Part shown: one piece after another, positions 12,749 through 32,220 of the stretch
Layout: each line of letters begins with the position of its first letter
Position numbering within the stretch: the first letter of the stretch is position 1
Assembly: GCA_002781785.1 (NCBI GenBank)
Contig: PFGC01000044.1
Location: 1-32,407 of the forward strand
Direction of reading: 5' to 3'
Length of the DNA stretch: 32,407 nucleotides
Source of the DNA: Candidatus Kerfeldbacteria bacterium CG15_BIG_FIL_POST_REV_8_21_14_020_45_12
Lineage (GTDB): Bacteria; Patescibacteriota; Patescibacteriia; UBA9570; XYC2-FULL-38-9
The notes under the pieces: model-generated
What the model was told of the DNA's origin: nothing
The model's input: the letters and a program-made list of their open reading frames with translations, nothing else
The model's database searches: none
Translations under genes and position numbers: made by a program

Positions 12749-14098
12749 TTATCGACTGCCGTTGCGGCGACCTTTGGATTGTCCTCCAGAGCGTTTTGGG
12801 TTTTGAATATTTCTGCCAGTGGAGTGCTGATAGCCACCGCTGGTATGGTGAGCTCGTGGAATCGAATGTCCAGTGCTAGTACCAGTAGTGCGGATTGGCA
12901 TGCTAGGAAAGATGTCGCGTGTGACTTGTGGCATGATATTCTTTGGCGCCCTGACTGATGGTTTTGGGTAGGTGTATGGTGGCGGAGGTGGCGGTGGATC
13001 GGTGTCATCGGGTGGCAGGTCAGTGATTTGTGGAGGATCAACTGGTTCTTTGGCGGGATCATTCAGTGGAGCGTAGTGTTCAAGGGCATGAATAATTTCT
13101 TGGCCCCCCTTGGGAACTTTGTAGAGCACATCCGCCCGCTGGGTGGTGATAGTAATGGAGGCTCGTCGGTGACTTGTGATAGTCTCATGAAAAGCTTTCA
13201 GAACATCTGGCCGAGTCTCTGTACCATTGTTACAGGCTCGTATTACCGGGAGCATCTTGGCAATTTTGTCATTTAGAGTTCGGCCTGGAAAGCTAATGCC
13301 AATCGCGTCGAGCGCGTCGAGAAAGTCAAACAAACTTCCTTCTTCGCCTAAACCTTCTGTGTGCAAGGAAATTTTTCCAGCATCAATGCCGGCTCCTGTA
13401 AGAGTGGTGAGGGTCACCTCGCCAGTGTGGTCGGCACGTTTTTCTGAGGCTGTGAGATTATTTTTTGAGTCTCCCTCAGGGCTGGCATAACCTTCAACCT
13501 CAACGCTCATGCTAACGATTAGGTCATTGGGAGATAGTCCTAGAGCGGTAAAATCTTTCAAGGTTAGATCGACACCGGCTTGGATAGCAGTTTCGGTGGG
13601 AGTTGAGCCTCCAACGGCAGTTGGGTTTTCTTGGTAGTACCTACCGATCCATTCCATTGGCACCTCTAATCTATCTTTAGTGACGAGGCCAGGCACCATA
13701 ATTTCTTCAAATTCTACATCGCCACCCCGGATGCCAACTGCTTCAGGTTTTACTACAACCCTCACCTGTCCTGGATGGGCGGCGATGATATAGTCGGCCA
13801 TATTTCCGGATTTTACTAAATCACGCACTTCGCCAACGGATAGGCGATGAGCAGCAACAGCTTCGTCGACTCCATTCTCACGTTCGAAACCACGCGGAAC
13901 ATATAAAGACAATTGTCCGGCCAGCATCATGGCTAGAGCAGTCGGTGCTGCTAGGGGGTGATTGCGGATTTCTTGAAGTATACCAGGTCCTTCCGGTGTT
14001 TCCTGAGCGAGGTTTTCGCTTGGTTCCGTTGGTTGCTCTGGTGATAGAGGTGACTTTAAATCAGGTCTAGGCAGTGGTCGTCTTTCACGCATGTTCAT
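12749..14098 (-). CDS. Unrecognised protein with OmpA-like motif and proline-rich/basic C terminus
   Basis: 449 residues (MNMRERRPLP; an alternative start is at the third residue). The first ~40 residues are Pro/Glu-rich and cytosolic in character, followed by a weakly hydrophobic stretch near 45-66 (HPLAAPTALAMMLAGQLSLY) that may be an anchor. The middle contains VEVEGYASPEGDSKNNLTAS and EKRAD, reminiscent of the OmpA C-terminal peptidoglycan-binding motif (GYASPEG...N..LS..RA). The last ~90 residues include a run of seven prolines and end in Ser/Gly/Arg-rich low-complexity sequence. A wall-associated role is possible but unproven. It is convergent with uvrB, from which a terminator separates it. 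Confidence 0.6.
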   Translation of the reverse strand: MNMRERRPLPRPDLKSPLSPEQPTEPSENLAQETPEGPGILQEIRNHPLAAPTALAMMLAGQLSLYVPRGFERENGVDEAVAAHRLSVGEVRDLVKSGNMADYIIAAHPGQVRVVVKPEAVGIRGGDVEFEEIMVPGLVTKDRLEVPMEWIGRYYQENPTAVGGSTPTETAIQAGVDLTLKDFTALGLSPNDLIVSMSVEVEGYASPEGDSKNNLTASEKRADHTGEVTLTTLTGAGIDAGKISLHTEGLGEEGSLFDFLDALDAIGISFPGRTLNDKIAKMLPVIRACNNGTETRPDVLKAFHETITSHRRASITITTQRADVLYKVPKGGQEIIHALEHYAPLNDPAKEPVDPPQITDLPPDDTDPPPPPPPYTYPKPSVRAPKNIMPQVTRDIFPSMPIRTTGTSTGHSIPRAHHTSGGYQHSTGRNIQNPKRSGGQSKGRRNGSR

Positions 14099-15977: not shown

Positions 15978-17198
15978 CTAGTTTTTGGAGGCCTGCCAGG
16001 TTGCATCAAAGGAAGTGTTCATGGCGTCTCTGATTTCAGGGCGCTTGATTTCAATGGCGATAGTGCCACTTCCCTTTGCCCAATGGAAAAAGATAATTGA
16101 ATCTGGATAAATGTTAATCTGCATGGGTGACTCAACAGCGTTATCAAGGAACCGCACAGAGGTCATTGACAGGTCAGTGTCGCCGGCAGCTTTCATCTCA
16201 TGGAGTATTGAATCACGATCTGGTTCGTAACCGATGAGCTTCAAATGAACTCCGCGTTGCACGCGTTCAGTATTATATTTTTCAAACCAAGGAATCGTGT
16301 CATTGCGAACGTCTATTCCATATGCACCCCAAAGCACTCTGTATTCATCTCCTGCCTTCAACTCACGCATCTTTCTATAGAATAAATCTTGAGCATTTTT
16401 CAATCCCCGGGTGATGCGGGTGTCCTGATTCCAGAGATAGTCAAAGTACTTTTTGTAGTCGTTGAATATCTGTTTATTTTCTATAACGAAGGCGACTGGT
16501 TCTGGGTCAGCTTCCCAAGTAATGCTGGCAACAGTTTCGCCAAACATGAAGATTACAGTGGGAGAGCACACTTCTTCAGGTAGCCACTTAAATTCAAAAT
16601 ATTTGTCTTCATGTCTTTCTCCTTCTCTAACGTAATCTAAGCCAGTCAGTCTTGATTTTGCCTTGATGTCTACCAGGTCGTGCCACCACACTTTTCGTTC
16701 GAGTCTTAGCTTGTTGTACTCAAGCCACTGTACCGGCATCGCTCGTTCCATGCCAGCATTGCCACCAATGAACCAGTTTTCCTTATAGTCTAATGACTTA
16801 AGCATAAACTCGTAGACACTATCCACGCCTCGGTAGGTTCTGGCATCTTGTTGCCATAGCATATTAAAATACTCCTTAAACCCATCCGCGAAGGACTGCT
16901 TCTTGATTATCATGGTGGTGGCTGGGTCTACAAAGTCGGTTAGAGCGACTTTGTCACCGAAGACATTCAGAGTTAGCGGAGTAAAAAATTGCTTTGGAAG
17001 GTATTTTATTTCAGCTTGAGGATTTGGATTTTGTGATTTGTGCCCATCTTGAAAGAGGATTCGTTCTTCAATCGGAGAGTTTTTTACCTTTTTAAAATAC
17101 TCTTGCAGGGTGTCAGGAACAGTTTTTTTGAAACATATCTGTATTGGGGTAGATTCCGTAGACAGTTTCTCCACCAATTCCAGCTGCGAGCATTTCAC
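15978..17198 (-). CDS. C-terminal part of a frameshifted TrmB-like regulator (tandem sensor domains)
   Basis: The track gives 406 residues from a GTG, but the first ~22 are an out-of-frame reading of the upstream TrmB gene. The real sequence begins around KTVPDTLQEYFKKVKNSPIE. The region holds three recognisable copies of one module. Each ends with a hydrophobic strand pair (LNVFGDKVALTDF / IFMFGETVASITW / INIYPDSIIFFHW) and then an aromatic helix (FKEYFNMLWQQD / YKKYFDYLWNQD / MNTSFDATWQ). This is the ligand-binding region of TrmB-type proteins, which follows the HTH in intact relatives. It is most likely the continuation of the 17113-17565 gene after a one-base slip in an A7 run. Confidence 0.7.
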   Translation of the reverse strand: MKCSQLELVEKLSTESTPIQICFKKTVPDTLQEYFKKVKNSPIEERILFQDGHKSQNPNPQAEIKYLPKQFFTPLTLNVFGDKVALTDFVDPATTMIIKKQSFADGFKEYFNMLWQQDARTYRGVDSVYEFMLKSLDYKENWFIGGNAGMERAMPVQWLEYNKLRLERKVWWHDLVDIKAKSRLTGLDYVREGERHEDKYFEFKWLPEEVCSPTVIFMFGETVASITWEADPEPVAFVIENKQIFNDYKKYFDYLWNQDTRITRGLKNAQDLFYRKMRELKAGDEYRVLWGAYGIDVRNDTIPWFEKYNTERVQRGVHLKLIGYEPDRDSILHEMKAAGDTDLSMTSVRFLDNAVESPMQINIYPDSIIFFHWAKGSGTIAIEIKRPEIRDAMNTSFDATWQASKN

Positions 17199-17565
17199 TT
17201 AGTACGGCCTTGGGGCCGGCAGCACCTTCGTAGGTCACAACCTCTGGCTTTGCTGCTGTGTGTTTTGTTTGTAGAGTTTTAACAGCCTCTTCAAGAAGAG
17301 TGCGGCGCGAGTCAAACTGTTCAATGAGCCGTTTGGGGTCAGTTGCTTGAAAAACTGAAACATTATTTTTTTTCGAGGAGGAGGCGAGGTGCTTTCCTTC
17401 CAGGCTTTTTAGTGATTCGTACACAATGTGGCGATGAAGGCCCGTGGCCTTAATGAGTTTACCGGCTGTGTTTTGACCTGATTCAACTAGAGCTAGATAG
17501 ACTATTGATTCATTCTGTCCGAACCCAAGGTCATGGAGTAGTTCGGTTAGTTGAGAGTTTTTCAT
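17113..17565 (-). CDS. TrmB-family transcriptional regulator, N-terminal part (frameshifted)
   Basis: 150 residues. The winged-helix domain (about 1-75) reads LTELLHDLGFGQNESIVYLA then TAGKLIKATGLHRHIVYESL, the TrmB pattern. A coiled linker (about 80-105) and the start of the sensor domain (EVVTYEGAAGPKAVLSEMLA, then ETVYGIYPNT) follow. The frame stops abruptly after MFQKNCS, immediately past a c-A7-c run. With six A's it would read QKTVPDTLQEYF and join the downstream ORF, giving a protein of roughly 528 residues. TrmB proteins regulate sugar-related genes in archaea and some bacteria. The target is unknown. Its ATG is 14 nt after a TATCAT box, and no SD is present. Confidence 0.8.
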   Translation of the reverse strand: MKNSQLTELLHDLGFGQNESIVYLALVESGQNTAGKLIKATGLHRHIVYESLKSLEGKHLASSSKKNNVSVFQATDPKRLIEQFDSRRTLLEEAVKTLQTKHTAAKPEVVTYEGAAGPKAVLSEMLAAGIGGETVYGIYPNTDMFQKNCS

Positions 17566-17688
17566 GAGTCAGTAAGGAAATGATAGTTTTTTTTGGCTTA
17601 TATTAGCGGATGATTGATACGATGAGAGGAAGAATAGTGAGTTTTCTAGGTGAAAAGGAGTCACTTTTCTTGTGTCATCATGATGTTG

Positions 17689-17716
17689 TTGACACGCCTT
17701 GTCAAGGTGTTACGAT
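17689..17716 (+). promoter_or_regulatory. Promoter of the GC-rich 216-aa gene
   Basis: Perfect -35 TTGACA (17689-17694), a 16-nt spacer and TACGAT (17711-17716). The predicted start falls at about 17723, exactly at the foot of a CCCCTC/GAGGGG hairpin (17723-17740). That would give the mRNA a structured 5' end just before the SD. Confidence 0.7.
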
Positions 17717-17757
17717 CGCTTGCCCCTCGCTGATGAGGGGTAAAACTGGAGGTAGTG

Positions 17758-18405
17758 ATGAAGAAGGTTCTGTTGCTGACGCTCGGTCTCGGATTGGGCT
17801 GGCCGGTCGTCGCTAGGGCTCAGGACAGCAGTGCGGACGACGGACTGATGTTGGAGAACATCCAGCTGCGCCTCGGGTTACACGGGGCCTACCAGCTGGG
17901 TGACGGCCAGCGCCGTCCGGTGCAGCTGACGACGCACTTGATCGTGCCGAATGCTGCTAGCTGGTCTTCGCCGTGGCTCTACGGTGGAGTGCGGTTCACG
18001 CTTACGGAGCGGTGGTCACAGGACTCGGAGCCGGCACTCTTGCAGCGCTGGTCCATGGAGGTTCTTGGTGGCGTTGGAACCGAGCCGGACTCCAACACCC
18101 CGGCCGTGTCGGTTCGGGTGCAGGGCAGCTCGTCGCGCTTCTACCTGTGGGGCGATCTGGAGTACTGGCCGCTTCTGGACAACACCGTGTACGGCTTCCT
18201 GGTGGCTCAGGCCAAGGTTGGGTCGGTGCAGCTTGGGGTGGAGAGCGAGAACAGGATGCCGCTGTCTGCGCTTGAAGATCGCTACGTGTCGGTTGGTCCG
18301 AGCGTGTGGGTTCCGGTCGGGGACCACGTGCTGCTGGCTACGACTACCTACTTCACGTGGGAAGGAGGCGTGTTTCAACGCTTCTATTTTCACCTGATGT
18401 TCTAA
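17758..18405 (+). CDS. GC-rich gene: secreted protein with outer-membrane beta-barrel character
   Basis: 215 residues from the ATG at 17758 (a GTG one codon earlier is possible). The SD GGAGGT lies 5 nt upstream. A Sec signal peptide MKKVLLLTLGLGLGWPVVARAQ has an ARAQ cleavage site. The rest alternates polar and hydrophobic residues in amphipathic strands with aromatic edges (SWSSPWLYGGVRFTLTERWS, RFYLWGDLEYWPLLDNTVYG, HVLLATTTYFTWEG) and ends in an aromatic strand FQRFYFHLMF with C-terminal Phe, as in BAM-assembled outer-membrane proteins. No family is recognised. Codons are strongly GC3-biased, unlike the neighbours. An outer-membrane protein would be out of place in a single-membrane bacterium, which points to transfer from a diderm. 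Confidence 0.8.
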   Translation: MKKVLLLTLGLGLGWPVVARAQDSSADDGLMLENIQLRLGLHGAYQLGDGQRRPVQLTTHLIVPNAASWSSPWLYGGVRFTLTERWSQDSEPALLQRWSMEVLGGVGTEPDSNTPAVSVRVQGSSSRFYLWGDLEYWPLLDNTVYGFLVAQAKVGSVQLGVESENRMPLSALEDRYVSVGPSVWVPVGDHVLLATTTYFTWEGGVFQRFYFHLMF

Positions 18406-18409
18406 CTAT

Positions 18410-18449
18410 GAGTCGAACTGCCTTCCTGGCGGTCCGGCTCATCTTTTTT
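18410..18449 (+). terminator. Terminator of the 216-aa gene
   Basis: GAGTC..ACTGCC/GGCGGT..GGCTC imperfect hairpin followed by ATCTTTTTT, starting 5 nt after the stop. Confidence 0.7.
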
Positions 18450-18491: not shown

Positions 18492-18992
18492 TCAGGTGGG
18501 TGGTCGAGAAGTCTGACCGAGCACCAGACTGAGACCTTGGTTGCGGGCCAGGCTTGTCATGAAGACGCCAGCTTGCAGGTACCGCCAGAAGTCACCTGAG
18601 GCTGGATCGTTCCTGGGCTGGTGCGGAGTGTTGATGCCAGAGGGTGTGCCGATGGCTCCGGGTGTCATGATCCCAGGTCTCGCGTGAGCTGGTTGGACGG
18701 CGCTGCGCATCCCGCGAAGGTCTACTTCTGAGATGAGCTCAGCTTCGAGACAAAGCCGGCAGAGCTGCGCCATCATCTTGTACCAGATCTCTTCTTGGGG
18801 AGCGCCGCGTCCCATGTCGCCCCTCGTGAGGTCGTGGTAGCAGCGCTGTAGGAACAGCTCGAGGGCGCGCCTGCTGGGCAGCTCCCGGTAGTCTGATTCC
18901 ATGCGTGCGGAGATGGCTCCAGTGCGCACGGCGTCTCTGTACTCTTGCGACTGCAAGAGTCTTGGCATGATGCTCGAGATCGGGTCCCGCAT
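18492..18992 (-). CDS. GC-rich gene: 166-aa protein of unknown function
   Basis: Begins MRDPISSIMPRLLQSQEYRD. The SD is an excellent AAGGAGGTG 5 nt before the ATG, and the promoter is consensus-like. The first ~100 residues look helical, with SRRALELFLQRCYHDLTRGD and IWYKMMAQLCRLCLEAELIS. A Gly/Pro/Thr linker (GIMTPGAIGTPSGINTPHQ) follows, then a short hydrophobic end (FWRYLQAGVFMTSLARNQG). There is no signal peptide and I recognise no family. GC3-rich codon use confirms this frame over the overlapping 18739-18999 ORF. It is convergent with the 216-aa gene, in the same GC-rich segment, and lies directly downstream of polA. Confidence 0.8.
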   Translation of the reverse strand: MRDPISSIMPRLLQSQEYRDAVRTGAISARMESDYRELPSRRALELFLQRCYHDLTRGDMGRGAPQEEIWYKMMAQLCRLCLEAELISEVDLRGMRSAVQPAHARPGIMTPGAIGTPSGINTPHQPRNDPASGDFWRYLQAGVFMTSLARNQGLSLVLGQTSRPPT

Positions 18993-21849: not shown

Positions 21850-21895
21850 TCTATAGGCTGCTCAGAACCAAGGCGTCCTGCCTGAGGAGTTGACA

Positions 21896-22414
21896 GTGCT
21901 TCGCATCGAGCAAATTGCCAAACCAAATCAGCCTCACAACCGTCATCACATCGGAGCCAGATCTCGGTGGAAGGCCAAGGCACAGAGTCCCAAGGTGACT
22001 CTGCCTGAGTGCTACCATGAGGGGTGGCACGCGCTGTTCGGGAACATGACGCCCTACGAAGCTACCCTGTTCGTGGAGGTCGTCATGAACGAACGCACTC
22101 GCCTGGGTTGGGATAAGGAGCGCCTCCTGTCCGTGCGGTGTTCGATCATCCGCTGCACCGAGGACTTGCGTCAGCGCAGACGGATCGATCCGTTGGAGCA
22201 ACGGCCGGTCAAGCGCGACGCTCCGATTCGATTCGACCACGTTCCCGGTTGGTGGAGGGAGCTGCATGAATTTCTGTTCGGCGACCTGAGATCTGTCGCA
22301 GAAATTCAAGCCTTCATCACTGAGCTGATGTTGCCGAACGCCAAGTTCGACGTGGCGCGCATCGTGGCGTTGCAGGAGGAGGTCAAGAGGAGGCACGGCC
22401 TGAGGGTCGTCTAG
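21896..22414 (+). CDS. GC-rich gene: 172-aa protein with HNH-like NRHH motif, unknown function
   Basis: The track begins at TTG 21890. I prefer GTG 21896 because the SD (GGAG at 21886-21889) is then 6 nt away. The N-terminal half has PHNRHHIGARSRWKAK, then VTLPECYHEGWHALFGNMTP and YEATLFVEVVMNE. The spacing of NRHH, the basic loop and the later YHEGWH recalls the beta-beta-alpha-metal (HNH) nucleases (RHHIxPRSxGG...N...L...H..WH). However, the GG is replaced and the fold is not certain, so nuclease activity is only a possibility. The C-terminal half is Arg-rich and helical. Codons are GC3-rich, and it is divergent from polA. Confidence 0.75.
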   Translation: MLRIEQIAKPNQPHNRHHIGARSRWKAKAQSPKVTLPECYHEGWHALFGNMTPYEATLFVEVVMNERTRLGWDKERLLSVRCSIIRCTEDLRQRRRIDPLEQRPVKRDAPIRFDHVPGWWRELHEFLFGDLRSVAEIQAFITELMLPNAKFDVARIVALQEEVKRRHGLRVV

Positions 22415-22443
22415 GCTGTACCATATGGGCAGCTTCTTTTTTT
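22415..22443 (+). terminator. Terminator of the 174-aa gene
   Basis: GCTG(T)/(G)CAGC short hairpin starting directly after the stop, followed by TTC and T7. The stem is weaker than at the other GC-rich genes. Confidence 0.65.
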
Positions 22444-22476
22444 AGGGAGCGTGGCTATATTGACGGAGATTTTTTT

Positions 22477-22830
22477 ATGTGTGAAGATGGCTCCGCCTTC
22501 TTGGAGGATGGTATGAGTGAGAGTGTCGCGGCCGCAGCTGCCGCGCCTGCTCTTTGCAGGGAGCAGAGCTGTGTCCTGGAGACTTGCCACGAACAGAGCG
22601 CCTACTGCGCTGCGCACAACGAGTGGATCTCGGCGCAGGAACGGCTGAGCAAAGCAGCGTTTCTGTGGTGGATCGGTTGCGGGATCGTGGGCGTACTGAT
22701 CTCGCTGGTCAGCGGCTCTCTGGTCTGGGCGCTGATCCTGCCGTTTGTCGTGGCAGTTGCTGTGTTGGTGGTTGTGTACATTCGCCTGGAGCGGATGTTC
22801 CGTCGCCTCCCCGGCTCGCGGCGGGCGTGA
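22477..22830 (+). CDS. GC-rich gene: small zinc-finger-like, two-helix membrane protein
   Basis: 117 residues from 22477, or 105 from the ATG at 22513, which has a better-spaced SD (GGAGG, 5 nt). The N-terminal region has a Cys/His cluster, CREQSCVLETCHEQSAYCAAH, spaced C-x4-C-x4-C-x6-C-x2-H, resembling a B-box-type zinc site. Two hydrophobic helices follow, AAFLWWIGCGIVGVLISLVS and LVWALILPFVVAVAVLVVVY, then a short basic tail (RLERMFRRLPGSRRA). The order of cytosolic zinc module, two-helix hairpin and basic tail is seen in small membrane proteins of unknown role. No specific family is recognised. CTCC in the leader can pair with the GGAG of the downstream SD. Confidence 0.75.
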   Translation: MCEDGSAFLEDGMSESVAAAAAAPALCREQSCVLETCHEQSAYCAAHNEWISAQERLSKAAFLWWIGCGIVGVLISLVSGSLVWALILPFVVAVAVLVVVYIRLERMFRRLPGSRRA

Positions 22831-24541
22831 ACAATTGAGTTCCCCCGCTGTCTTTTTTTAAATTAGAATTGGTGCGGTGCTGTTTGATAAATTGACCAAG
22901 GGTGATGGCGAATAGTCCAAGGATCACTAAAATCATCAGTCCGTACTGAGGGGGTTCTTTGGTGGTTTGTAGTCCGGTGCTGACAGTGGATCCACCACTG
23001 GCTTGAGCTGGGCTGATCCAGTTCTCTTCATTAACAGTTTGTATCAGGTCGCCATTTCCGCGTGGTAGAACACGATACTCGCCATTACTTTCAGAAACAA
23101 TACCCTGCACGCTCAGTCCGGTGCCTTCAGTGAGTATGGTGCTATCAATCTGAGCGCCCTCTTTAAACTGTAGTGCTGTAGAGTCGTTAATCATTCCACC
23201 TGTGCTATTTACAGTAGTAAGTGCACCTTCAAGGTGTATTAACATGCCTTCTAGGTCCTCAGTTATTTCGAAGACGTCTCGGCTAACCAGTTTTTCGTCG
23301 CTGGCAACCACTTGAATATCTTGTGCTGACTCAGTTTTAATTCTGGTTTCGCCTCGAGAGGTAGATTTGATTCCCGAGACGGTTAGGCGGTCTCCAGTTT
23401 TTAGTTCCGGAAAATCTTTTTTATAGGAATAAACCTGTATGCCGGCAGTATCATCCTGAATGTAAAAGTACTGAGAACCAAAAACGCTTGGCAAGACAGT
23501 TACAACCCCCTCAACAGTGGCTGTTGTATTGTCATCGAGCGCTCGAAAAAGATCGATGGATAAAAGATCGGTGTCTGCCTGCTGATCTGTGTTGGGGTCA
23601 GCTTGAGCGGTCTCGTTTTCAGTTGCGGTGAATATATTGACCTGTCCGGGGGTTGGCTCGAACGTCCATTGCCAGTCTGAGTTGGAGCGAGCCCAGGCCC
23701 AGCCACTCTCGGCCGATTCATAAGTGGTGCCGTGAACAATTGAGCCATATGGATCAATCAGATAAACGGTGTCCCCGGTATTGTTTAGGTTAATTTTACT
23801 GTCACCAATTTCAACTGTGAGTATTTCGTTGGCGACAAGAGTTGTATTTTCGAAGGTGTAGTAGGTGTTGGTATCTGTTAGCTGCCACCCGGCTAGGTTA
23901 AGTGACCCGCTACCCTCGTTAACAAGCTCGATCCATTCGTCGGTCGTATCTAGTCCTTCTGGGTCCGGTAGTAGCTCGTTGATGAAAATCTGGTCGCTAG
24001 TTTGGTAGGGTGTTTCGGTATCAGGTAATGTAGTGCTCGCATTTGTGGTGTCATCACTGATGCTGTTATTTTGGGAAATGTTTTTTTCTCGTGGTGTGAT
24101 TCGATCGGTCCACTGCCACTCATTTTCAATAAGAGCCCAAGAGCTTGCGCTGGAGGCTTCTTCGTAGGTCGTGTCGTCAACTAGTGTGCCGTTTGGCTGA
24201 GATAGAGTTACGCTATCGCCAGAATTGTTTAGGTATATCCGTGACGAGGTATGTGTGACTATAGTGTAAGCGCCTGGGCTAATGCTTGTTTCACCAATTG
24301 ATGATTCGATGGCGTACTGTTTGCCGGAAGAGTCACCAAGTATCCAGCCAGTTAGGTCAATGGTGTCATTGCCGGTATTGTGCAGTTCAATAAATTCTTC
24401 TTCTCCAGTAGGTGGAGCTGGGTATACCTCAGAGAGGACAATATCCGTTGAATAGATGGTGGTGTTAGTTTCGGTTTCGCAAGCGATGGTTGGTGAGGCA
24501 AGGAGGGCGATTAGGGCAACGATAGTTAGATAGTAACGCAT
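22709..24541 (-). CDS. Surface protein with two lamin-tail domains and an OB-fold domain; aberrant C terminus
   Basis: 610 residues as read. A signal peptide (MRYYLTIVALIALLASPTIA) leads. Two lamin-tail domains share IVLSEVYPAP / IFINELLPDP starts, a (W/F)IELxN motif, LTGWILGD / LAGWQLTD, and matching ends WQWTDRITPREKN / WQWTFEPTPGQVN. Next comes an OB-fold nucleic-acid-binding-like module (about 350-425: VEGVVTVLPSVFGSQYFYIQ). A final membrane helix (GLMILVILGLFAITLGQFI) is followed by a basic tail. Lamin-tail domains occur in secreted nucleases and cell-surface proteins. The last ~40 residues, after NSNLKK, are antisense to the terminator and 3' end of the GC-rich 117-aa gene, so the natural stop was probably lost. 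Confidence 0.8.
   Translation of the reverse strand: MRYYLTIVALIALLASPTIACETETNTTIYSTDIVLSEVYPAPPTGEEEFIELHNTGNDTIDLTGWILGDSSGKQYAIESSIGETSISPGAYTIVTHTSSRIYLNNSGDSVTLSQPNGTLVDDTTYEEASSASSWALIENEWQWTDRITPREKNISQNNSISDDTTNASTTLPDTETPYQTSDQIFINELLPDPEGLDTTDEWIELVNEGSGSLNLAGWQLTDTNTYYTFENTTLVANEILTVEIGDSKINLNNTGDTVYLIDPYGSIVHGTTYESAESGWAWARSNSDWQWTFEPTPGQVNIFTATENETAQADPNTDQQADTDLLSIDLFRALDDNTTATVEGVVTVLPSVFGSQYFYIQDDTAGIQVYSYKKDFPELKTGDRLTVSGIKSTSRGETRIKTESAQDIQVVASDEKLVSRDVFEITEDLEGMLIHLEGALTTVNSTGGMINDSTALQFKEGAQIDSTILTEGTGLSVQGIVSESNGEYRVLPRGNGDLIQTVNEENWISPAQASGGSTVSTGLQTTKEPPQYGLMILVILGLFAITLGQFIKQHRTNSNLKKDSGGTQLFTPAASRGGDGTSAPGECTQPPTQQLPRQTAGSAPRPESR
22821..22859 (+). terminator. Terminator of the 117-aa gene
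   Basis: GCGGG..GAAC/GTTC..CCCGC stem overlapping the stop codon, followed by TGTC and T7, then A. It runs straight into the 3' end of the convergent lamin-tail protein gene. Confidence 0.85.
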
Positions 24542-26231: not shown

Positions 26232-27725
26232 TTAGTACGCTCTGGCAAAAATAGCTCTTTGCTTGGCTGGTTGGTCACAAAGTATGCAATTTGTGGCCGG
26301 AGTGTTTTGTTCGAAAGGAATACAACGAATCGTGGCCTTGGTCTCATCTTTTATTTGGTCCTCACACTTAGCTTCCCCACACCAAGACAATGAGAAGAAT
26401 CCGCCCGCTTCAATTTTTTCTTTGAACTCGTTGTAATTTTCTAGTACGAATGTACGGGAGGTTAATCGCTCTTGGGCGTTGTTATAAAGCGTAGCTTGAA
26501 TGTCAACTAGAGCTTGGCTGATGCTATCAGCAATACTATCAATACTGACTTGTTGTTTGTCGTCGGCTGTGCGACTAACCAGAGTGACAGAATGGTTTTC
26601 TAAATCACGTGGGCCAATTTCAATTCGAACTGGCACGCCCTTCTTTTCCCATTCGTAACTTTTTTCTCCGAATGTAAAATGATCTCTGTCATCAATGTGG
26701 ACGCGAATACCATTCTGCGCACACTCAGATTTGATCAGGTCAACATGCGTGAAGACTTCGCTATTATCTTTACCTTCTTTGATAATCGGAATGATGACAA
26801 CTTGAGTTGGCGCTAGGGCTGGTGGAACAATCAAGCCACGATCATCTGAGTGGGACATGATTAGAGCTCCCATTAACCTGGTGCTAACTCCCCAGCTCGT
26901 GAGCCAGGCGTATTGTTCCTTACTCTCTTGATCAAGAAAAGTGATGTTAAAAGCCTTTGAAAACCCCTGGCCTAGTTCGTGAGAGGTTCCAGATTGTAGA
27001 GCTTTACCATCCTGCATCATGGCTTCAATCGTGAAGGTTTTGTTGGCCCCAGCAAATCTTTCTGAAGGTGATTTTTCGCCAGCGATGACTGGCATGGCCA
27101 TAACTTCTTCGGCAAAGACCCGGTATACTTCTAACATCTTAGCAGTTTCTTCGGCAGCCTCATCTTGAGTGGCGTGAGCTGTGTGACCTTCTTGCCAGAG
27201 GAACTCTGAAGTACGTAGAAAAATACGGGTACGCATTTCCCAACGCATAACATTAGCCCATTGGTTAATCAGCATCGGTAAGTCACGGTATGAACTAATC
27301 CAACGAGAGAAGGAGTCGTGAATAATTGTTTCAGAGGTTGGCCTGATGACATACTCTTCTTCAAGTTTGGCGTCTGGGTCGACAATGACACCACCTTCTG
27401 GACTAGCCTTTAGTCGATGATGGGTGACTACGGCACATTCTTTGGCAAAGCCTTCTACATGATCGGCTTCACGACTAAGAAAAGACTTGGGAATCAAGAG
27501 TGGAAAATAGGCATTTTGGTGTCCGGTCTCTTTAATTTTATCGTCAAGAATTCTTTGGATTCGCTCCCAGATTGAAAAACCGTATGGTTTAATTATCATA
27601 GCTCCGCGAACAGGGGAGTTTTCGGCCATGTCGGCGGCGCGGATAACATCTAGGTACCATTGCGAATAGTCTTCATCTCGCGTGGTGATCGCTTTGTCTT
27701 TGTGGGGGTTTTTGTTGTTGCTCAT
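26232..27725 (-). CDS. proS: Prolyl-tRNA synthetase, archaeal/eukaryotic type
   Basis: 497 residues from the ATG at 27725 (the track start at 27761 is an upstream TTG). Class II core: RAADMAENSPVRGAMIIKPY, RPTSETIIHDSFSRWI, RWEMRTRIFLRTSEFLWQEG (motif 2) and HTAHATQDEA. Binding domain: VPVRIEIGPRDLENHSV. The C-terminal zinc-binding extension is typical of the archaeal/eukaryotic group: CGEAKCEDQ with TNCILCDQ, ending AIFARAY. No YbaK-like insertion is present, so it lacks cis-editing of Ala-tRNA(Pro). It charges tRNA(Pro). It lies 38 nt after proA in the proline operon. No SD is seen. A second, bacterial-type ProRS lies upstream at 29682-31268. Confidence 0.96.
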   Translation of the reverse strand: MSNNKNPHKDKAITTRDEDYSQWYLDVIRAADMAENSPVRGAMIIKPYGFSIWERIQRILDDKIKETGHQNAYFPLLIPKSFLSREADHVEGFAKECAVVTHHRLKASPEGGVIVDPDAKLEEEYVIRPTSETIIHDSFSRWISSYRDLPMLINQWANVMRWEMRTRIFLRTSEFLWQEGHTAHATQDEAAEETAKMLEVYRVFAEEVMAMPVIAGEKSPSERFAGANKTFTIEAMMQDGKALQSGTSHELGQGFSKAFNITFLDQESKEQYAWLTSWGVSTRLMGALIMSHSDDRGLIVPPALAPTQVVIIPIIKEGKDNSEVFTHVDLIKSECAQNGIRVHIDDRDHFTFGEKSYEWEKKGVPVRIEIGPRDLENHSVTLVSRTADDKQQVSIDSIADSISQALVDIQATLYNNAQERLTSRTFVLENYNEFKEKIEAGGFFSLSWCGEAKCEDQIKDETKATIRCIPFEQNTPATNCILCDQPAKQRAIFARAY

Positions 27726-27762
27726 GGTAGATAGACTACTGTGTTGTTTAGGAATGTGCAAA

Positions 27763-29055: not shown

Positions 29056-29113
29056 AAAAAAAGGGGCAGCGCAGATCTTCAACCGATGCGGATGTCGGCG
29101 AGCTCTACGCTGC
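29056..29113 (-). terminator. Terminator of the 129-aa gene
   Basis: GCAGCG/CGCTGC stem that includes the last codons and stop, enclosing an inner CCGA/TCGG hairpin and ending in CCCC plus T7 (complement of 29056-29062), then A. Confidence 0.7.
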
Positions 29114-29494
29114 GTCTGCGGTGATGAAGCTCACCTGCCGCAGATTATCCGCTCTCATTCTGCCAAGGCGCAGACGATGCAGACCTTCGCGCCAGTCATA
29201 GAGCACGTTGTCGCAGATGTGTCGCGGAGTCAGGGGCACGTAGAGGAGTGCCTCAGTCGTACGCACCTGGAGATTGATGCTGTCCACCCGCTCCGTCCAG
29301 GTGATCTCACACGGAATGAGCTTGGACAGCTCTCCGAGGGTGATGAGTCCAGCCTGGTCCTCGAAGAGAACGCAGCGGTCATCGCCTACCAGGAGCCGCT
29401 CGATGAGCGCCAGTGCCTGGTCGGGATCACGGGAAGGCGGGAATGTGATCTGAAGGGTCACGCGGTGCAGCGTGCCACCAGCCGGCGTTTTCAT
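29105..29494 (-). CDS. GC-rich gene: 129-aa protein of unknown function
   Basis: Begins MKTPAGGTLHRVTLQITFPP. The SD CGGAG is 5 nt before the ATG, and the GC3 bias fits this frame. The sequence suggests an alpha/beta fold with a core of short strands (CVLFEDQAGLITLGELSKLI, SINLQVRTTEALLYVPLTP) and an Arg-rich helical end (WREGLHRLRLGRMRADNLRQ). There is no signal peptide, membrane helix or recognised motif. It lies between the GC-rich proS and native proA on the same strand, but with its own promoter and terminator. The opposite-strand 237-aa ORF is a shadow. Confidence 0.7.
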   Translation of the reverse strand: MKTPAGGTLHRVTLQITFPPSRDPDQALALIERLLVGDDRCVLFEDQAGLITLGELSKLIPCEITWTERVDSINLQVRTTEALLYVPLTPRHICDNVLYDWREGLHRLRLGRMRADNLRQVSFITADAA

Positions 29495-29681: not shown

Positions 29682-31268
29682 TCACCGTCGGTGAAGCTCC
29701 GGTCCGGGGCGAACCGGTCCAGGAAGACGAAGGCGCCTTCGCAGGGTTCCGGAAGCCGCACCGCAGGCCTGGTTGCTGTCCCCAGTGTTGATCGGGACGA
29801 TGTGCACGTGGAAGGGTGCGACGGAGGCGGGCCAGCAGATGCCGGCGTCGTCGCGGTTCTGATCCACGACGGCCTGCAGCAGCCGGGTGACCCCGATGCC
29901 GTAGCAGCCCATCCAGATGACCTGGTCTTTACCATTGGCGTCGGTGTAGGTCGCACCCATCGGCTCGGAGTAGATGGTTCCGAGCTGGAAGATGTGACCG
30001 ACCTCGACTCCATGGCTCTCGTGCAGGTGGCCCTTGTTGCAGTTCGGGCAGCCGTGTCCCTCGACCGCCGTGTGGAGATCTCGGAACTCGCTGGGCAGGG
30101 GCAGGTCCTCGGTGCCGAAGTTGACGTCGAGCGCGTGGTAGTCCGTGCGGTTGAGGCCGCAGAGGAAGTTGACCATGTCCTCGACAGACTTGTCGAACAG
30201 GATGCGACGGACATTCTCGAGCCCCAAGGGACCCGCGAAGCCGACCTCCGCACCCGTCGCGGCGATGACGACCGAAGCCGCCGCCGCTACGACGCTGTCG
30301 ACGTTCAGGGCGTTGCGCACCTTGACCAGGTTGATCTCCAGGTCTCCTCGGATGCAGACCGCCACCTCGAAGGGGTCGGTCTCGGCGTTGCAGGTGAGGA
30401 TGATGGTCTTGACCATGTGTCGTGCCGTGACGCCATCTTCACCGAACAGCGCTTCGAGCTCCTCCACGGTCTTGGTGCCGGGGGTGTGCTCGTTGCGCCG
30501 CGTGCGTCGATCCGCGTCGTACCCCTGCCGCGGCCACCGGCTGGTGGCGCGCTCGACGTTGGCGCCGTAGTCGCAGGAGTCGCAGGTGAGGAGGACATCC
30601 TCGCCTACGTCCGAGAGCGCCATGAACTCGGCGCTGCCGGAGCCGCCGATTGCGCCGCTGTCGGCCTGGACAGAGATGAGTCGGTGGAGGCCGACCTTGG
30701 CGAAGATCCGCCAGTACATCGCGCGGTACATGTCGAAGCTGCGACGCATGCCTTCTTCATCCACATCGAAGGAGTAGGCGTCGCTCATGTTGAACTCGCG
30801 GCCGCGCAGGAGCCCGCCGTGTGGGCGGGTCTCGTCGCGGTACTTCCAGCCGATCTGGTGGAAGTGCAGGCCGTCTTCGTCCAAGTCGCGCCAGGAGGAA
30901 GCCTCCGAAGCGGCGAGCCAGGTAACGACCTCCTCCGCCGTGGGGGCCAGCCCGTAGCGCTGACCGCTGCTGCTGGTGGTCTGGAACATCGTGCCGGAAC
31001 GCACGTACTTGTCCCAGCGACCCGTCTGCTCCCAGAGCTCAGCGGGCTGGATGATCGGCATCTGGATGTTGAGAACGTCGTCGTGCTCCATCTCGGCGAA
31101 GATGATCGCCTCGATCTTGCGGAGCACGCGCCAGCCCAGGTGGGTCAGCACGAAGACGCCGGCAGTCACCTGCCGGATGTAGCCAGCGCGCACCAGAAGG
31201 GCATGCGCGCCGGAGAGACCTTCTGCTACTTCACGCCGGGTCCTGGGGATGATCTTCTTCATCCGCAT
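29682..31268 (-). CDS. proS: GC-rich gene: bacterial-type prolyl-tRNA synthetase lacking most of the anticodon domain
   Basis: 528 residues from the ATG at 31268, set by a strong SD (AAAGGAGGTG, 6 nt); the track start adds 71 spurious residues. Motif 1 region LNIQMPIIQPAELWEQTGRW, TxE loop YGLAPTAEEVV, motif 2 YRDETRPHGGLLRGREFNMS and motif 3 MGCYGIGVTRLLQAV are intact. A YbaK-like editing domain (about 265-410, MVKTIILTCNAETDPFEVAV, AGPLGL loop) is inserted as in bacterial ProRS. After HIVPINTGDSNQ, where ~100 residues of anticodon-binding domain should follow, this frame turns to Arg/Pro nonsense. The +1 frame continues with GC3-biased codons (EGAFVFLDRFAPDRSFTDGE) to a stop at 29666. It is either a degenerate copy or a truncated paralogue. 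It lies between proC and proA. Confidence 0.85.
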   Translation of the reverse strand: MRMKKIIPRTRREVAEGLSGAHALLVRAGYIRQVTAGVFVLTHLGWRVLRKIEAIIFAEMEHDDVLNIQMPIIQPAELWEQTGRWDKYVRSGTMFQTTSSSGQRYGLAPTAEEVVTWLAASEASSWRDLDEDGLHFHQIGWKYRDETRPHGGLLRGREFNMSDAYSFDVDEEGMRRSFDMYRAMYWRIFAKVGLHRLISVQADSGAIGGSGSAEFMALSDVGEDVLLTCDSCDYGANVERATSRWPRQGYDADRRTRRNEHTPGTKTVEELEALFGEDGVTARHMVKTIILTCNAETDPFEVAVCIRGDLEINLVKVRNALNVDSVVAAAASVVIAATGAEVGFAGPLGLENVRRILFDKSVEDMVNFLCGLNRTDYHALDVNFGTEDLPLPSEFRDLHTAVEGHGCPNCNKGHLHESHGVEVGHIFQLGTIYSEPMGATYTDANGKDQVIWMGCYGIGVTRLLQAVVDQNRDDAGICWPASVAPFHVHIVPINTGDSNQACGAASGTLRRRLRLPGPVRPGPELHRR

Positions 31269-31366
31269 GGGACACCTCCTTTCATTGAATCGGCGGGTTA
31301 CGCCATGGGTTGTTGGGAACACACTTCTTGCAGATCCTGAAGGATACGAAAAAAGCGAGTAGCAGC

Positions 31367-31395
31367 ACCTTATCTGATACTTTGAGTAATGTCTA
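31367..31395 (-). promoter_or_regulatory. Promoter of the GC-rich proS
   Basis: Minus-strand TAGACA (complement of 31390-31395), a 17-nt spacer and TAAGGT (complement of 31367-31372), just after the proC stop. The ~90-nt leader contains an ATCCT/AGGAT mini-hairpin but no T-box consensus. Confidence 0.55.
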
Positions 31396-31410
31396 CCCCA
31401 GCTGTTTAGA

Positions 31411-32220
31411 CTAAAAAATTTGCGAAAGCTCTTTAGCCCGGAGGTAAGCAGCTTTAATCCCTTTGTACACTCGTAAGCCAATCCTTTCCGAGCGGAATAC
31501 TTTTAGCGCTGCGTCAGTGGTGCCTTTTTTTGAGGTGACTTTTTTACGAAGGGTGACGGCATCATCCTCGCTTTGGTCTAAAAGAAGAGCAGATCCACGA
31601 AGGGTTTGTTTTACCAGTAGGGTGGATTGTTCTTTGGTAAGGCCAAGCTTTTGGCCCGCGTCTATGAGGTATTCAGAGAAAGCAAAAACATAGGCCGGTC
31701 CAGATCCAGAAATGGCTGTGGCGACATTTATTAAATCTTCCTTTTTTACCTCAAGTTGTTTTCCAAAAGAGGCGAAGATTTTTCTGACGTCATTTTTTTG
31801 TTTTACTGATACTTGATTTGTGGCTATCCAGACAGTCATGCCCTCCTGTAGCTGGGCCGGTGTATTTGGCATGGACCTAACAGTGCGCGAATGTTTTGTG
31901 TGTTTCTTTAGAGTAGATAGAGATACCCCTGCCATTATTGAAATTAGGAGTGATTGTTTTGTGATTGATTTTCCCAGTAGCTCAAGAACGACTTGAGAGT
32001 CTTGTGGCTTAACAGCTACGATAATTGTATTAGCCTCGGCAACAATACTAATGTCGCTACTAACATTGATCTTTAAACGTCGGTGCAGGTCTTTTAGTCG
32101 AGGGAGGTGCAGGTCTACTATGGTTATTTCACTCGGCTTATAGGTTTGTGCGGAGATAAGTGACGACGTCATGGTTTCTCCCATAACTCCACCTCCAATA
32201 ATTACAATGTTATTGCTCAT
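31411..32220 (-). CDS. proC: Pyrroline-5-carboxylate reductase
   Basis: 269 residues. The Rossmann start is NIVIIGGGVMGETMTSSLIS, followed by IIVAVKPQDSQVVLELL, and the family signature region VRSMPNTPAQLQEGMTVWIA. The C-terminal dimerisation and substrate part is AISGSGPAYVFAFSEYLIDA and ending RKKVTSKKGTTDAAL. It reduces pyrroline-5-carboxylate to proline with NAD(P)H. The start overlaps the proB stop (ATGA), so the two are translationally coupled. No SD is present. Confidence 0.96.
   Translation of the reverse strand: MSNNIVIIGGGVMGETMTSSLISAQTYKPSEITIVDLHLPRLKDLHRRLKINVSSDISIVAEANTIIVAVKPQDSQVVLELLGKSITKQSLLISIMAGVSLSTLKKHTKHSRTVRSMPNTPAQLQEGMTVWIATNQVSVKQKNDVRKIFASFGKQLEVKKEDLINVATAISGSGPAYVFAFSEYLIDAGQKLGLTKEQSTLLVKQTLRGSALLLDQSEDDAVTLRKKVTSKKGTTDAALKVFRSERIGLRVYKGIKAAYLRAKELSQIF

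Follow-up and report, generated by a model that had tools for sequence, protein, structure and literature searches.

An exported, outer-membrane-barrel-like protein and its divergent family, recurrently encoded beside TrmB-type regulators, in presumed monoderm Patescibacteria

Why would a bacterium presumed to have a single membrane carry a gene for a protein built like an outer-membrane beta-barrel? The question is raised by the window analysed here, that is, the whole stretch of 32,407 nucleotides (contig PFGC01000044.1, positions 1 to 32,407) from Candidatus Kerfeldbacteria bacterium CG15_BIG_FIL_POST_REV_8_21_14_020_45_12, in which one gene, P0001, encodes such a product. Outer-membrane barrels are an accepted hallmark of diderms and are clients of Omp85. 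Patescibacteria were described as probably having no outer membrane (PMC12102498), and a study on envelope evolution noted that reliable envelope data for them are scarce (PMC8871954). They are also described as living on host bacteria, and surface enzymes were proposed to compromise the envelope of these hosts (PMC11665869).

P0001 is located on the forward strand at 17758..18405, stop codon included, and encodes 215 amino acid residues. The open reading frame, with an ATG at 17758 and the stop codon at 18403-18405, is genuine; an in-frame GTG at 17755 offers an alternative start. Its assignment as a barrel-type protein gene is based on the open reading frame, on family membership and on the fold of a relative. 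The N-terminus, MKKVLLLTLGLGLGWPVVARAQ before DSS, resembles by eye a signal peptide, with a hydrophobic core and no lipobox cysteine, and is a putative Sec signal of 22 residues (17758..17823, forward strand), cleaved after ARAQ. Similar signal-peptide-like N-termini are present in all the relatives, in agreement with the secreted protein proposed in the initial annotation. The C-terminal strand ending in phenylalanine, noticed there as well, is also found: the last strand, FQRFYFHLMF, conforms to the beta-signal pattern with a terminal Phe, which occurs in 19/32 family members and in 6% of shuffled sequences. A GGAGG ribosome-binding site is present 5 bases ahead of the ATG (17748..17752, forward strand), preceded by a sigma70-like promoter, TTGACA-16-TACGAT (17689..17716, forward strand; a consensus match only), and a second promoter-like consensus match points in the opposite direction, toward a TrmB gene (17705-17677, reverse strand). 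Three nucleotides past the stop codon begins a strong predicted intrinsic terminator, a 14-pair hairpin followed by the U tract CTTTTTT (18408..18449, forward strand; -24 kcal/mol, z -4.7). With a predicted promoter, a ribosome-binding site and a terminator of its own, P0001 looks like a self-contained transcription unit.

When compared alone with Pfam and NCBIfam, P0001 did not match any family, nor did it match the profiles PF13505 (OMP_b-brl) and PF13557, and PF13505 was not found elsewhere in its genome. A search of 57 relatives retrieved one weak homologue (pairwise BLAST E 2e-10), and profile iteration extended the family to six and later to 30 of the 381 genomes of the class (~8%) at E<=0.01, distributed over 23 of 291 genera, and to a few genomes elsewhere in the phylum, making up ~41 distinct loci. 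The named matches of one subfamily belong to Falkowbacteria, Buchananbacteria and other Parcubacteria/Patescibacteria MAGs, while the nine other genomes searched in P0001's own family and order gave no match. Identity between P0001 and the aligned members is 13-27%, and when P0001 was left out of the profile and the signal peptides were removed, the profile still recovered it at E 4e-27, against 0.036 for the best among 2000 shuffled sequences. The tree has long branches, deep internal ones included, and many weak forks. Judged by these comparisons, the family is divergent, patchily distributed and patescibacterial, with no named family matching it.

Searches beyond the family profile in Patescibacteria were negative: P0001 or a relative against plasmids and phages (tblastn) and peptide-pattern scans of all genomes and viral contigs, with patterns taken from a single sequence or a broad alignment, returned nothing, PHROGs gave chance matches only, and the family profile found one chance match among PDB sequences and then none that was credible. 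Around P0001, boundary repeats of the kind left by mobile elements were sought, and those present were short and chance-like. A binning error or contamination was considered and rejected, as the composition of the neighbouring genes fits the genome and relatives elsewhere are similarly placed beside a TrmB gene. The C-terminal phenylalanine is not kept by every member and some members bear tails (Pro-rich in L020, whose sequence is given in part as N, and basic in L026 and L027).

Structure models were built on small alignments (8 sequences). AlphaFold2 predicted an all-beta P0001, in a poor model (pLDDT 51.5) whose best structural matches were mostly porins, none of them significant. The same alignment centred on the relative L045, ~24% identical to P0001, gave a model with pLDDT 82.8 and pTM 0.72, composed of a signal helix and 11 strands, and its 50 best PDB matches were all membrane barrels (VDAC, Tom40, porins and KdgM). 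In a viral library, several matches of this model carried porin or outer-membrane annotations, but none of them reached E<=0.001. A barrel-type fold, as supposed initially, is probable from the L045 model, but the 8-10 strands supposed there are slightly too few, since the models give 11. An odd number of strands is unusual in bacterial barrels and, like the poor model of P0001 itself, weighs against a closed barrel. The best reading of these several lines, partly by homology to L045, is that P0001 is an exported outer-membrane-barrel-like protein.

How does this protein compare with known barrels? A Pfam scan of 27 members detected PF13505 (OMP_b-brl) in four (best 7e-8) and PF13557 (Phenol_MetA_deg) in two (7e-5), besides weaker matches to further barrel families. 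Both are beta-barrel families of diderm outer membranes, and the P0001 family is likewise exported, all-beta and ~200 residues long; it differs in that its carriers have neither Omp85 nor LpxC and in that its members were found here, in a profile search within the phylum, only in Patescibacteria. The best size-matched match of the L045 model is KdgM, a small monomeric 12-strand porin (TM 0.53-0.60; rmsd 3.7 over 145 columns), from which it is set apart by its 11 strands, by the absence of sequence similarity and by a context unrelated to oligogalacturonate. The lowest Foldseek E-values (3e-4 and above) were those of the mitochondrial barrels VDAC and Tom40, which also have an odd strand number, as in the L045 model; however, these are larger, eukaryotic, devoid of a signal peptide and superpose with TM-scores of 0.2-0.3, and the likeness is likely a generic barrel similarity. 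The fold is of a known kind, whereas the family, its presumed monoderm setting without Omp85 and the regulatory module described below are apparently undescribed; a limited search of open-access papers retrieved no description of such a barrel family or of a TrmB-operator module.

In the window, a gene for a TrmB-family regulator (15978..17565, reverse strand; PF01978, E 9e-13) diverges from P0001, and both share a 192-bp control region (17566..17757). The regulator gene is split into two frames, 17565-17113 and then 17198-15978, the change from one to the other falling at a run of seven A; the break may be due to a sequencing error, slippage or gene decay. A TrmB-family regulator is present within ~1.5 kb of the barrel gene in 15 of the 41 loci, the window locus included, and is divergent in 14. 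The 16 genomes checked contain 2-10 TrmB genes each, from which we calculate that chance alone would account for less than one neighbour of this kind. These neighbouring regulators bear the DNA-binding domain of the TrmB family (PF01978), but they depart from known TrmB systems in their divergent orientation relative to a barrel gene and in the tandem operator that accompanies 8 of the 15 pairs. The Falkowbacteria-type subfamily (L039-L045) has a different conserved neighbour instead, a membrane protein of ~440 residues, upstream of the barrel gene, co-directional with it and matching nothing in Pfam.

We identified this operator in five TrmB-barrel loci as a common tandem element of 41 bp close to the regulator gene, with half-sites 20 bp apart; its pattern, GGTG-N9-ACC-N9-TMTTKRCCACTC, spans 37 bp. 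An oriented matrix derived from the five loci retrieved the other three in held-out pairs, with scores of 37-41, against 10.8 or less in all other sequences compared (the loci collected, the window and a sample of its own genome). Allowing one mismatch at most, the pattern occurs at 22 sites in 20 of 334 genomes of the class, and a reversed control pattern had no match in the genomes listed. A palindromic reading, GGTG-N7-CCAC, was discarded, as the motif is not palindromic and showed no enrichment. All 22 sites (L077-L098) are beside a TrmB gene and eight have a family barrel on the opposite side, the other opposite genes being transporters, barrel-like exported proteins and unknown genes; an operator specific for barrels was consequently rejected, and the element is best described as a predicted TrmB switch located beside surface and transport genes, of which barrels are the commonest partner found. 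As the element lies closest to the regulator gene, the regulator may act through it on its own expression and not solely on that of the divergent gene. Neither the control region of the window nor the rest of its genome matched the tandem pattern and, given also the broken regulator frame, control at this locus may differ or be decaying. The module would provide a handle on when the barrel genes are switched on.

Among the other partners of the operator we noticed SSF-type symporters (L092 and L098) and a DMT-like permease (L083). L093 (1548-2373) and L097 (1680-2442), also beside a TrmB gene and an operator, encode exported, Phe-terminated proteins with alternating strand-like segments; they matched neither the barrel family nor Pfam and possibly represent other barrel families.

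Which lipid layer could then receive the barrel? Neither Omp85/BamA nor LpxC was detected in P0001's own genome; across the family, Omp85 was above the cut-off in none of 32 carriers (the single match below it has an internal stop) and LpxC was found in none of 31, in searches whose controls were positive in known diderms. For this reason, we class P0001 as built like an outer-membrane protein and not as a resident one, and the initial claim of an outer-membrane-type protein in a probable monoderm is borne out. Homologues in many monoderm relatives, which the initial annotation took as evidence against that claim, do exist in the literal sense; nevertheless, they are themselves barrel-like and their carriers equally have no Omp85, and this makes the puzzle greater, not smaller.

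We propose, with a probability of about one half, that P0001 is an exported barrel of an undescribed patescibacterial family that folds in a lipid layer external to the cell, the likeliest being the outer membrane of a diderm host. The host membrane is favoured because the carriers have no genes for BAM or LPS, because the patchy distribution is like that of host-specific genes and because the BAM-type signal has been kept. In the mechanism we envisage, the barrel gene would be under TrmB-type control, and the chain would be exported by Sec across the only membrane of the cell and fold into the lipid layer outside it, most probably the outer membrane of the putative diderm host, whose BAM machinery could read the last strand ending in phenylalanine. 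Once in the host, the barrel may act as a small charged channel or as a surface protein, easing nutrient uptake or attachment. Put as a general strategy, in which a dedicated TrmB-type switch governs the export of barrels by epibionts with one membrane, and these barrels enter the outer membrane of hosts with two, borrow their BAM and make them leaky, the idea is tentative, and we would sooner expect it to fail than to hold.

The alternatives are open, and we rank them in the order own outer layer, soluble fold and inert foreign DNA. According to the first, which we consider unlikely, the patescibacterium itself would have an outer lipid layer, either an atypical outer membrane or vesicles that it sheds, and the barrel would enter this layer with no help from BamA and act there as a porin for the cell's own uptake. 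A recurrent and regulated family with its own predicted promoter is consistent with this, and so are the resemblance to VDAC and KdgM and the presence of the TrmB-operator module also beside the SSF-type symporter genes, which would suit own uptake. Against it stand the searches for Omp85 and LpxC, the description of the phylum as one without an outer membrane (PMC12102498) and a presence in ~8% of the class genomes, odd for a basic envelope pore. Recurrent, regulated barrels in presumed monoderms devoid of Omp85 and LpxC would mean either that Patescibacteria act on the envelopes of their hosts, as in the reading we prefer, or that the current picture of their cell surface is challenged.

Could the protein instead be soluble, or bound to the surface as, for example, an adhesin, and be barrel-like in sequence only? 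Strands were mapped on 32 members, with faces assigned from mean hydrophobicity; polar residues make up 9% of the greasy face and 39% of the opposite one, and conservation is higher on the polar face (1.75 bits) than on the greasy face (1.33 bits; p 0.005). Strongly conserved charges lie on this polar, inward face (L045 positions 139, 141, 187 and 113). In a soluble beta protein, conservation should be found in the greasy core instead; a polar face better conserved than the greasy one is the pattern of a membrane barrel and the opposite of what a soluble core would show. The amphipathic strands described initially are clear in the family average (beta-type hydrophobic alternation, z 4.0-4.5 against shuffles) and faint in P0001 alone, whose 170-degree alternation is weakly above shuffles (z 1.7, p 0.05). 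The soluble alternative draws on the presumed monoderm nature of the organism, which has no insertion machinery, on the uncertain model of P0001 itself and the odd strand count, and on the charged or Pro-rich tails of some members and the Phe end that is not universal; the listed structural matches are, however, exclusively membrane barrels, and the Pfam matches above noise are outer-membrane barrels, and we regard a soluble fold as improbable, slightly more so than an own outer layer.

The base composition of P0001 bears on where the gene came from. The window has mostly ~44% GC and the P0001 gene 62%, and its GC3 of 0.79, against 0.34-0.47 in most neighbouring genes, makes a recent or recurrent acquisition likely. 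The same holds across the family: the GC3 of the barrel gene exceeds that of the flanking open reading frames, chosen mechanically, in 40 of 41 loci (median +0.15, p 1e-11), that of its own TrmB neighbour in 15/19 and that of the membrane-protein neighbour in 6/6, and the barrel genes were likely acquired from GC-rich sources. Nevertheless, the elevation is also seen in the subfamily whose neighbouring gene is conserved, and for this reason a transfer can be neither dated nor proven from composition alone. Of the foreign cargo suggested initially, the acquisition is supported by GC3, but stray DNA is not: a family present in 30/381 genomes, deeply diverged, equipped with expression signals and recurrently accompanied by a divergent TrmB gene points to a resident, and foreign cargo by itself is too simple an account. 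The least probable alternative, a recent transfer from a GC-rich diderm that has no function in P0001's cell, would accommodate the GC3 values, the further GC-rich genes scattered through the genome, the frame-broken adjacent regulator and the nine searched genomes of the same family and order without a match, but not the intact open reading frame with its promoter, ribosome-binding site and terminator, nor the deep internal branches of a family spread over many genera, the recurring TrmB neighbour and the GC3 elevation kept beside a conserved gene.

In 271 kb of P0001's own genome, GC3 is bimodal, and 21 of 260 mechanically called open reading frames exceed 0.60, some of them probably in the wrong frame. 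GC-rich islets are present in the window at 18492-18992, 21850-22850 and 29105-29494; their small open reading frames, of 166, 174, 117 and 129 residues, match no known family, have GC3 values of 0.71-0.75 and lie between ordinary genes of GC3 0.34-0.47. The window also contains two prolyl-tRNA synthetase-like genes, at 29682-31481 and 26232-27761 (both on the reverse strand), the latter GC-rich, with a GC3 of 0.81; it belongs to the type that has an editing domain (PF04073) and is apparently out of frame at its C-terminal end. A protein of 449 residues (12749-14098, reverse strand) has a weak OmpA-like match (PF00691, E 0.006), under the cut-off. On contig C18 of the same genome, a GC-rich gene (L074:16894-17730, forward strand) encodes a putative lipoprotein that contains four metal-binding motifs of the MopE type (PF11617, E 2e-34) and is likely another acquired surface protein.
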